NCBI RefSeq assembly: GCF_000504085.1
Contig: NC_022792.1
Span: forward strand, 620,001-684,000
Source: Pseudothermotoga elfii DSM 9442 = NBRC 107921
GTDB taxonomy: Bacteria; Thermotogota; Thermotogae; Thermotogales; DSM-5069
Direction: 5' to 3'
DNA: 64,000 nt
Shown: in pieces, positions 57,206 through 60,345 of the stretch
Position numbering within the stretch: position 1 is the stretch's first letter
Layout of the letters: every line of letters starts with the position of its first letter
Notes under the pieces: generated by a model
The model's input: the letters and a program-made list of their open reading frames with translations, nothing else
Told to the model about the DNA's origin: nothing
Databases searched by the model: none
Position numbers and translations under genes: made by a program

Positions 57206-59800
57206 CTACCTCCCTACGACACCCAGCTTATCTATAACCCTTCCTATCATTTCATCGATAGTTGTTATAACCCGAGCTGAAGCATTAAATGCATGCTGAT
57301 ATTGTATCATGTTAGTCATTTCCTCATCTAAGGAAACACCCTTTACACTCTCTCTTGCTTGATCAATCTCGCTTCGCAAGAGTTCGGTATTATCTTTCAT
57401 TTTTGAGGCGCTTTCTGATTCAACTCCGAGTTCAGCAACAATACCACTCATAAATTCATAAAAGCTTTCTTTGCCGTCTGAAAGCAACGTCTCATATCTT
57501 GAAGAAGATATGAGATTTACTATTTCAACGTTGCTCTCTCCTGTTGGCAGAAAATCTGTTGCGTTCCATGTGATGTTCCACAATGTTTTGCCTATATCTA
57601 CAGCGAGAGATTCCGCGTTTAAAAGTAAAGCATTTGACACATTCCATTGGTCTACAAAGAAATAAGGTTCATAACTCTGACGTTTATCAACGGTCAGAAA
57701 TTCACTCAAAGAAAGCCTGTTTCTGGCAGAATCAAAGTCCTCGTTTCTTGATATTAAAGTATAAGAAACAGACCAGTCCGCATCAAAATTTACTGGGTCT
57801 GAGTTTGTATCTATAAGCCCAAGCATTTCAAATAACCCCTGAGGACCTTCGATTGTAAATGACATGAGATCAAATCCGTAACTTTCTCCAGCTCTGAGGA
57901 CAAAAGCACTGTGAGGGGTCAGATCAGCCGTAACACCGGTATTTGCTGAATTTATCTTTGTTACGAGGTCTTCGAGAGTATCTCTGGTTGGATCAATATG
58001 AATTTTTGTATTGTTTATAATTATGTCAAAACCGTTTGTCGCATCAAAATTAGTCATCGAAAAAGCTATATTTTCCAGAGTTTCTGAAGGATCAAGTACA
58101 GTGTATGTTTTATAATCAGCACCAGCCTGAACAAAAAAGCCTCCGTCATCGACGATACTTAATCTGTCCGGGTCAAACTCCATTTGCCCATTAGGAATTA
58201 TTAAAAGGGTGTCATTTACTATCAGGGCATGTACATTTGATAGCTGGCTGTTTACCTGATTTGCTATATCATTCAGGGTTGTTGAAGAATCAACTGCTAT
58301 GTTCAGTGTCTCTGTGATTTTTGTACCATCAGAGAGCGTTTCTTCAAAATTGATCGTGTATGATCCACTTTGAACATTTGAAAGATCTGAAAAAGATAGT
58401 AATTCAAGTTGCTTTGTTGAAAATCCCAATTTGCTGAGAACACCGCCGTTTTCATCTATTACAAGTGTGTTTCTGAGATTTTCTGAACTTTCAAAATACA
58501 GCCTGTAAAAAGAGTTTACGCCGTCAGGGCTGTGCTGCCCTGTATTCAGCGTCAGCCAAGTAGTCGATAATTGTGTAATTAAATCGCTCACGTTGCTTCC
58601 GCTGCTGATAGAAATATTAGTGCTGTTAGATCCGTCAAACAGAACCAGAGATCCATCTGAAGTAAAAGTGAGATTTTGTAACTGTGATTCACTGGTATAC
58701 CCACTCAAACCTGTAGCATAATATAAAGGTCCGGATGAAATCTTTCTGCTTCCTAAGATTCTGTATAAAGCGGGATCATCATTCCCATAGGAAGACACAA
58801 TGGGGTTAAACAAATTCAGGCCAGTAATTTTACCTGATGAGTCAAATCCTTCCCTGTGAATCAGATTCAGTTTATCTGTCAATGAAAGAGCGAATTCGTC
58901 GAGGTAATTCATGTATTTGACGATGCCGCCATCTCTCAGATCAAACAATGCCTTAAGTTTTCCGTCAGAAACCGTTATTTTTGAATTCCCAGCAAACAAT
59001 TCAAAAAAACCTTTTGCATAGGGTCTTTGCTCAGCTCTGATTTCTGTTTGAACCGAGCCAGATAGCACTACCTGATCACCGAACATCAATATTGTCTGCC
59101 CGTCAGAAGTCTCGTAATATGAGATATTTGCGTATTGTGAAAGCTCATCGAGTATTCTGTCTCGCTCATCAAGTAAATCATTTGGTGTCGTCCCAAAAGC
59201 TACCGATATTCTGATTTGTTCATTTATCTGCGCGAGCCTTTCTACCATTGAGTTTATATCATCTGTTGTTTGATAAATCTCCTGATTGATATCTTCTCTA
59301 AGTTGTTGAAGGCGGGTATAAAGATCTTTAATATTTGTGACAAGCTCTTCTGCACGTGATATAAACTCTCTTTTTGCTGCAACATTTGTTGGATCTGTTA
59401 TGATTTCTTCCGCAGCGGAGAGAAAGGAATCGTATAAACTCCTTATTCCAGAATCTCCAGGTTCTGAAAAAAGCTGCTCAATGTAATGAAGGTTAGAGTA
59501 AATTGTATCGAAATAACTATACCTGTTTGAAGTTTGTCGATACTGAATATCGAGAAATAAATCTCTGACTCTCTGAACATCTGTAACCTGAGAACCTGTT
59601 CCAAGCATCAAAGGAATAGATGGTTGAGTTAAGGTTGCTAAAGGGATTGGTGATGTTGTTTGAATAACAGGCCTCTGCCTTGAATAACCATCAGTACTGG
59701 AATTCGCTATATTATGAGCCACGACATTCATAGCCAGTTTATGTGTGTAAACACCGAGTAACGCTGTGTTTAAAGAACCAAAAAGGCTTAAATTTGCCAG
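57206..59800 (-). CDS. flgK: hook-filament junction protein FlgK, probable CTG start
   Basis: FlgK (HAP1) is the first junction protein after the hook. With the first ATG (59731) the protein would begin M-N-V-V-A-H-N-I-A and lack the terminal helix that every FlgK needs for polymerisation. Upstream codons continue the family N-terminus without a stop (A-N-L-S-L-F-G-S-L-N-T-A-L-L-G-V), and the codon at the expected start is CTG (59798-59800), seven bases after GAGGAGG. The resulting 864-residue protein is longer than E. coli FlgK (547) owing to a large central domain. The C-terminal helix (EEMTNMIQYQHAFNASARVI) is intact. Confidence 0.92.
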   Translation of the reverse strand: MANLSLFGSLNTALLGVYTHKLAMNVVAHNIANSSTDGYSRQRPVIQTTSPIPLATLTQPSIPLMLGTGSQVTDVQRVRDLFLDIQYRQTSNRYSYFDTIYSNLHYIEQLFSEPGDSGIRSLYDSFLSAAEEIITDPTNVAAKREFISRAEELVTNIKDLYTRLQQLREDINQEIYQTTDDINSMVERLAQINEQIRISVAFGTTPNDLLDERDRILDELSQYANISYYETSDGQTILMFGDQVVLSGSVQTEIRAEQRPYAKGFFELFAGNSKITVSDGKLKALFDLRDGGIVKYMNYLDEFALSLTDKLNLIHREGFDSSGKITGLNLFNPIVSSYGNDDPALYRILGSRKISSGPLYYATGLSGYTSESQLQNLTFTSDGSLVLFDGSNSTNISISSGSNVSDLITQLSTTWLTLNTGQHSPDGVNSFYRLYFESSENLRNTLVIDENGGVLSKLGFSTKQLELLSFSDLSNVQSGSYTINFEETLSDGTKITETLNIAVDSSTTLNDIANQVNSQLSNVHALIVNDTLLIIPNGQMEFDPDRLSIVDDGGFFVQAGADYKTYTVLDPSETLENIAFSMTNFDATNGFDIIINNTKIHIDPTRDTLEDLVTKINSANTGVTADLTPHSAFVLRAGESYGFDLMSFTIEGPQGLFEMLGLIDTNSDPVNFDADWSVSYTLISRNEDFDSARNRLSLSEFLTVDKRQSYEPYFFVDQWNVSNALLLNAESLAVDIGKTLWNITWNATDFLPTGESNVEIVNLISSSRYETLLSDGKESFYEFMSGIVAELGVESESASKMKDNTELLRSEIDQARESVKGVSLDEEMTNMIQYQHAFNASARVITTIDEMIGRVIDKLGVVGR

Positions 59801-59859
59801 AAGATCCCCTCCTCAATCAATTGATCTTTCTCTATATTAAGGATTGTTTCCTAAGAATA

Positions 59860-59886
59860 TTATCGGCAAGGCCAAAGAGGAGATTA
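59860..59886 (-). promoter_or_regulatory. probable sigma-28 promoter upstream of flgK
   Basis: Minus-strand GCCGATAA (59860-59867), a perfect match to the FliA -10 box, preceded at 15 bases by TAAT (59883-59886, consensus TAAA). It overlaps the flgN stop region and lies about 60 bases before flgK. It would boost late transcription of flgK, flgL, fliW and csrA. Confidence 0.6.
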
Positions 59887-60345
59887 GCTTTGAGCTTCGA
59901 ATCTGTGTGAAGAGCTTTTTCTCAGCGATGCATCACCATTGTATGTTGATTGAACAGGATTGCTGAATGTCGAAATCAGCATATCTATATAATCAAGCTG
60001 AAATTTAGACAGTGTTTTCAATCTATCCATCTGTACTGAAATCTCGTTGAATAATTTTACGATTTTAAAAACCATTTCAAGAATAGTTCCACCGGTTTGT
60101 TTGGCAAATTTGTAAAATGAAATTTCCTGAGGATAATTCAAATTTCTCTTCAAAGATTCAAAACATTCTTTTCTTTCATCTTCAAGCTTTTCAAAAGAGC
60201 AGATCAACTGTTCCAGCGTAACAGTGGTACTGCTCATTTCATTCAGATTTTTAGATAACATGGATTTCTCGTGCTGATAAAGGCTTTTGGAAATTTCCAA
60301 AAGCACAACTTCCTCATTTGAGAGGATTCTAACCAGCTCTTCCAT
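59884..60345 (-). CDS. flgN: FlgN-family export chaperone
   Basis: FlgN is the cytosolic chaperone of FlgK and FlgL. 153 residues, helical throughout, with heptad-like stretches (about 1-60 and 95-125) and no membrane segment. FlgN proteins are weakly conserved; the assignment rests on length, helical character and position between flgM and flgK. Confidence 0.8.
   Translation of the reverse strand: MEELVRILSNEEVVLLEISKSLYQHEKSMLSKNLNEMSSTTVTLEQLICSFEKLEDERKECFESLKRNLNYPQEISFYKFAKQTGGTILEMVFKIVKLFNEISVQMDRLKTLSKFQLDYIDMLISTFSNPVQSTYNGDASLRKSSSHRFEAQS

Follow-up and report, generated by a model that had tools for sequence, protein, structure and literature searches.

A probable CTG start codon of flgK in Pseudothermotoga elfii and the recurrence of CTG starts in its lineage

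The flgK locus and its leader

The window analysed here comprises 64,000 nucleotides at contig positions 620001-684000 of the 2.17 Mb Pseudothermotoga elfii genome (G000; one contig, 99.96% complete). A run of flagellar genes lies on its minus strand in the order flgM, flgN, flgK, flgL, fliW and csrA. The features that bear on the start of flgK are the following, in window positions:

60615-60349, minus strand: flgM
59884-60345, minus strand: flgN, upstream of flgK (Pfam FlgN, 35.1 bits)
59860-59867, minus strand: GCCGATAA, resembling a sigma-28 -10 element, likely flgK promoter (CGATAA conservation)
59849-59854, minus strand: TTAGGA, conserved start-proximal motif after GCCGATAA
59813-59815, minus strand: in-frame TGA, upstream limit for the flgK start (read from the sequence)
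59808-59813, minus strand: Shine-Dalgarno (SD) sequence AGGAGG, 7 nt from CTG (read from the sequence; aligned spacing d=4)
59798-59800, minus strand: CTG, very likely start codon of flgK (homologous start position and family N-terminus)
57206-59800, minus strand: flgK coding sequence as read from CTG, 864 aa (TIGR02492 and Pfam FlgK_D1, Flg_bbr_C and Flagellin_IN matches)
59729-59731, minus strand: first in-frame ATG of flgK, internal Met (SD run of 2 nt; relatives start 23 codons upstream)
57200-56310, minus strand: flgL (named from a reading of its translation)
56282-55812, minus strand: fliW (named likewise)
55819-55580, minus strand: csrA (named likewise)

The flgK leader (59883-59801, minus strand) holds CGATAA and TTAGGA motifs that are invariant in all 8 aligned genomes, this one included. 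GCCGATAA resembles the consensus of the sigma-28 -10 element. The window contains 2 matches to it against 1.05 expected, so it is by itself not rarer than chance, and we read it as the likely sigma-28 promoter of flgK because it is conserved and not because it is rare. Transcription from this promoter would give flgK a short leader and allow its production independently of flgN. The leader also contains two AGGA motifs, one of them within the SD sequence, and fliW and csrA belong to the same gene run; CsrA-type translational control of flgK is possible. A CTCCTC (59877-59882, minus strand) that directly follows the flgN stop is able to base-pair with the SD region of flgK (59808-59814). We rejected sequestration of the SD sequence as a conserved switch, as the fold is no better than that of shuffled sequences (z -0.33) and none of the 8 relatives examined has CTCCT.

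Evidence for the start of flgK

The flgK frame runs from the TGA (59815-59813) through GGA GGG GAT CTT to CTG (59800-59798) and on through GCA AAT TTA to the first ATG (59731-59729). Reading it through, we found no in-frame ATG, GTG or TTG between the TGA and this ATG, in agreement with an earlier note on this DNA, which had stated that no standard start exists upstream of 59731. An open reading frame restricted to standard starts would begin at 59731 and encode 841 aa, its ATG lying 23 codons past the CTG. The N-terminus of the FlgK family (xANLSLFGSLNTALLGVYTHKLAMNVVAHNIAN) begins exactly at the CTG. Two other candidates were discarded: a TTG at 59820 is out of frame and reaches a stop after 10 codons, and the CTT at 59803 was judged implausible.

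The CTG lies, as that note had also observed, seven bases after GAGGAGG (59814-59808; spacer 59807-59801, 7 nt). An SD sequence thus stands at functional spacing before the CTG, as is expected of a CUG-initiated gene. Its aligned spacing (d=4) is the commonest class among first starts in G000. The SD run here is 6 nt, against 7 nt in the sister genomes that have TTG, and the ATG at 59731 is preceded by an SD run of just 2 nt. The CTG does not overlap an upstream stop, the flgN stop ending 83 nt before it.

To compare start codons between genomes, we read the homologous codon 27 positions upstream of the conserved HN[IVL][AS]N anchor in fetched flgK loci. A total of 108 loci were examined, of which 36 could be anchored; the 72 others, more distant, failed the anchor pattern. 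One Clostridiaceae locus (L012) was anchored at another offset, with AAG. In the other 34 anchored loci, all from Thermotogota, the homologous codon was a standard start in 34/34 cases (ATG in 23, TTG in 7 and GTG in 4), although one contig accounts for two of the anchored loci (L004 and L110), leaving at most 33 distinct genomes. This uniformity indicates that the start position of flgK is fixed across the phylum and that the codon alone differs here. The three other genomes of the genus (G001-G003; loci L082-L084) all have TTG, and CTG occurs in only one genome among the anchored loci. The comparison of flgK starts that had been proposed as a check thus shows a shared start position, with TTG and not CTG as the codon in the sister genomes. 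The sister genes otherwise have the same place in the operon, start position, SD sequence and CGATAA-TTAGGA leader as the gene described here.

The codons between CTG and ATG behave as coding sequence. Across codons 2-24, the codons with synonymous differences number 12, 12 and 14 against G002, G003 and G001, respectively, and those with nonsynonymous differences 1, 0 and 3, the FlgK proteins of the genus being 72-74% identical. Read from the CTG, the protein scores 334.8 bits against TIGR02492 (flgK_ends; cut-off 170.75) and is matched from profile position 2 (residue 9), well above the cut-off of this FlgK equivalog profile, as compared with 323.5 bits and a match only from position 17 when read from the ATG. 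N-terminal matches to the FlgG, FlgE and FlgC models are likewise present with the CTG start and gone with the ATG start, and the N-terminal segment common to rod and hook proteins is thus present in FlgK read from CTG, with no match of this protein to the Pfam rod-domain model at E 0.001. The gene therefore shows what is expected of a CUG-initiated gene: its conserved coding sequence extends beyond all standard starts, and the codon at the homologous start is CTG. The start at CTG 59800 that the earlier note had put forward is strongly favoured by position-specific homology, by the mostly synonymous divergence before the ATG, by SD spacing and by profile coverage, and we consider this start very likely.

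CTG starts in other genes and their frequency

That note had called CTG initiation rare in bacteria. In this lineage the flgK CTG does not stand alone: dtd, uppP, mnmG, a Cof-type HAD phosphatase gene, smpB and trmFO also appear to start at CTG in this or in sister genomes. Further cases came from a pairwise survey with the sister genome G002, after which five proteins were searched in 25 genomes and the homologous starts read; the start anchor failed in 5 (mnmG), 8 (uppP), 3 (HAD), 16 (smpB) and 0 (dtd) of 25 loci each, so the counts below refer to readable loci. In G000, four of these genes have no standard start at the family N-terminus and have a CTG behind an SD sequence:

contig 693447, minus strand: dtd CTG start (locus L117)
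contig 150361, plus strand: uppP CTG start (locus L142)
contig 697479, minus strand: mnmG CTG start (locus L117)
contig 557782, minus strand: Cof-type HAD phosphatase CTG start (locus L113)

The dtd start is CTG in all four genomes of the genus (G000-G003) and also in G004 and G005; elsewhere among the 25 genomes it is TTG in G007-G010, GTG in G006 and G023, and ATG in the other 13. The uppP start is also CTG in 4/4 members of the genus, with GGAGGAAGGATTCTG in all four; the ATT immediately before this CTG is an alternative start that is spaced less well. As both genes carry CTG throughout the genus, these codons are not sequencing errors. The other cases are more scattered. The HAD phosphatase has CTG in G000 only, as against TTG in all nine other members of the family that were read, and mnmG has CTG in G000 and G006 and TTG, GTG or ATG in G001, G005 and G007-G009. 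Starting at the next standard codon would cost mnmG of G000 its FAD-binding GAGHAG region and the HAD gene its DLDGT motif; both genes therefore need the CTG for a working protein. The mnmG of G024, from another family of the order (locus L214), reads ggaggtataattCTGTTTTTC, has no standard start ahead of its FAD-binding motif and apparently begins at CTG; CTG starts may therefore extend beyond this family. The smpB start is CTG in G001, G002 and G003 (G003 has CTG TTG, either of which is possible), with a GTG (54970-54968, minus strand) at the homologous place in G000, and trmFO starts at CTG in G002 and at TTG in G000. The longest-ORF start of smpB in G000, TTG 54985 (minus strand), falls inside the SD sequence (TTGAGGTGG).

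Several of these starts form CTGA overlaps with the TGA stop of the upstream gene: dtd in both G000 and G002, uppP and HAD in G000, trmFO in G002, and mnmG in G006. They resemble the NTGA stop-start overlaps known from translational coupling, and reinitiation by terminating ribosomes may help at these sites. In contrast, flgK, with its gap of 83 nt, and mnmG of G000 have free-standing CTG starts, so an overlap is not required.

A larger survey compared 664 kb of G000, 680 kb of G002 and 200 kb each of G007, G006, G023 and G016. Among reciprocal-best orthologs of at least 45% identity, it looked for genes whose conserved sequence extends 8 or more codons beyond all standard starts; this rule misses genes in which a standard start happens to occur further upstream. 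In G000 it picked out 16 genes and in G002 17, of which 11 and 13 were dropped by eye as antisense ORFs, chance-conserved leaders (SD region or upstream gene end) or cases without CTG plus an SD sequence. After this inspection, CTG was required in 5/253 orthologous genes of G000 (flgK, mnmG, HAD, uppP and dtd), or 4/252 without flgK, which was the ascertained case, and in 4/264 of G002 (trmFO, uppP, smpB and dtd), where the sample was partly chosen around the known uppP, HAD and infC so that uppP is no independent draw. The four smaller samples gave 5, 5, 7 and 7 flags in G007, G006, G023 and G016 (3, 4, 7 and 7 under a 10-residue rule), many of which look like rRNA-region artefacts, and among them one convincing CTG, that of mnmG in G006. 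We found no convincing CTG in G023 and G016, an absence that is weak given the small sample of 200 kb each. In a homology-free test on G000, 7/84 CTG codons upstream of the first standard start had an SD sequence (8.3%) as compared with 216/5,367 of all codons there (4.0%); ATT and ATA score about like CTG, so the test does not single out CTG and is weakly in its favour.

Taken together, the comparisons make it likely that CTG is a regular and evolutionarily stable fourth start codon of the genus, used in about 1.5-2% of conserved genes (among them dtd, uppP, mnmG, smpB, trmFO and flgK, free standing or in CTGA overlaps) and overlooked by gene finders that recognise only ATG, GTG and TTG and so truncate or miss such genes. 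CUG initiation as such is of an already known kind, and flgK alone would be a modest addition; the habit at the level of the genus would be the interesting part if confirmed. In the occasional CUG-initiated genes of bacteria, initiator tRNA likewise reads an NTG codon preceded by an SD sequence, but such genes are single and rare, whereas here several genes in one genus are concerned, some of them in all sampled members. Non-canonical starts have reportedly also been found by N-terminal proteomics in Deinococcus deserti. In a reconstruction over 36 groups, only 4 ancestral starts out of about 68,900 changed to CUG (PMC5622118), a figure that we take to be limited by annotation. Our literature search, in a corpus mostly without subscription papers, retrieved no paper describing repeated use of CTG starts in Thermotogota.

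Proposed initiation at CTG and alternative explanations

For flgK, we propose that the AGGAGG 7 nt away would position the 30S subunit at the CUG and that the ordinary initiator tRNA-fMet would read this codon through its second and third bases. The first residue of FlgK would then be fMet and not Leu, and the Met would probably be removed before Ala to leave the N-terminus ANLSLFGSLNTALLGVYTHK. The anticodon CAU is described as pairing with the UG of CUG, the first-position C-U contact being weaker than the contacts at GUG and UUG, and in E. coli CUG initiation complexes are reported to be less stable and CUG is termed an uncommon bacterial start (PMC11497404). CTG was reported at 0.03% in a mycobacterial SD reporter library (PMC4633059). 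The lineage nonetheless seems to tolerate CTG at low frequency beside ATG, GTG and TTG, and strong SD sequences are a plausible reason, SD binding being reported as strong in Thermotogae (PMC3636130). The most probable origin of the flgK CTG is a T to C substitution in a TTG that the three sister genomes have kept. TTG is one transition from CTG and is the first in-frame standard start in 170/624 sampled G000 genes, so given strong SD sequences such a change may cost little and persist.

The initiation machinery appears unremarkable. IF3 of G000 is ordinary in an alignment of 18/25 genomes (the anchor missed 7), as is its tRNA-fMet, found by ARAGORN, which keeps the three G-C pairs of the anticodon stem; we saw nothing in either to account for the tolerance of CTG. 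The start of infC is known as an autoregulation device of IF3. As in the known AUU, AUC or AUA starts of infC, a non-standard start lies behind a strong SD sequence in the CTG genes, and infC of this lineage also seems to lack an NTG: in G000 it has ATC or ATA after the SD sequence, and all infC loci read (L320-L344) have ATC, ATA or ATT there. That infC has kept a non-NTG start suggests that discrimination against non-NTG codons remains. The autoregulatory infC start differs in being other than NTG, and the CTG genes have no regulator or function in common.

Could the start position be right and the base wrong, because of an error in sequencing or assembly or a mutation that arose in this culture, the real codon being TTG as in G001-G003? 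The occurrence of CTG at flgK in one genome only would fit, but dtd and uppP show throughout the genus that CTG works, so that no error is needed, and the genome is a single contig of 99.96% completeness; we regard this as quite unlikely. It is highly improbable that FlgK starts instead at ATG 59731 without its N-terminal helix, or that both forms are made, since this first in-frame standard start follows an SD run of just 2 nt, corresponds to an internal Met in relatives and is preceded by sequence whose divergence is mostly synonymous. A loss of the start codon in a decaying flagellar gene, which at first would look just like a weak start in a single genome, is equally improbable given that the rest of flgK is open and matches its family profile and that the surrounding flgM, flgN, flgL, fliW and csrA frames are intact.

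A further possibility accepts the CTG start and assumes that it was selected to lower FlgK output relative to the other hook proteins. CUG is expected to be a weaker start than UUG, and few copies of FlgK are needed per flagellum. However, the CTG is not conserved, with TTG in the three sisters and ATG, TTG or GTG elsewhere, and in unrelated housekeeping genes, too, CTG stands in place of other NTG starts, which points to drift. We found neither a conserved weak start nor compensation by the SD sequence (a run of 7 nt in the sisters and 6 nt here), so the earlier suggestion that the CTG tunes the level of FlgK is unsupported. We consider such selection unlikely; drift from TTG under strong SD sequences would explain the flgK CTG as well as tuning does.

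Models of bacterial initiation usually allow three start codons, and in biochemical work CUG is seen as discriminated against. A genus of thermophiles whose housekeeping genes keep CUG starts over deep divergence, as judged by the 72-74% identity of its FlgK proteins, would be a natural system for studying this discrimination, with SD strength, high temperature and the initiation factors as candidate determinants. Annotation that allows only ATG, GTG and TTG would truncate or miss such genes and mislead work on structure and function, the lost N-termini leaving MnmG without its FAD-binding motif, the HAD phosphatase without its DxDGT motif and FlgK without its first helix.

Two further loci of G000 are of note. 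At contig position ~549738 (plus strand, L113), a conserved LSLGFSGVRP lies upstream of the first standard start, preceded by ATT or CTC with no clear SD sequence, which may reflect a non-standard start, a frameshift or an error. At contig positions ~174697-174769 (plus strand, L143), all standard starts lie downstream of the conserved N-terminus DFAKLFDSTLLKP, and there is no CTG; here AGAGGGG is followed by ATT TTT ATA, and an ATT or ATA start is possible.
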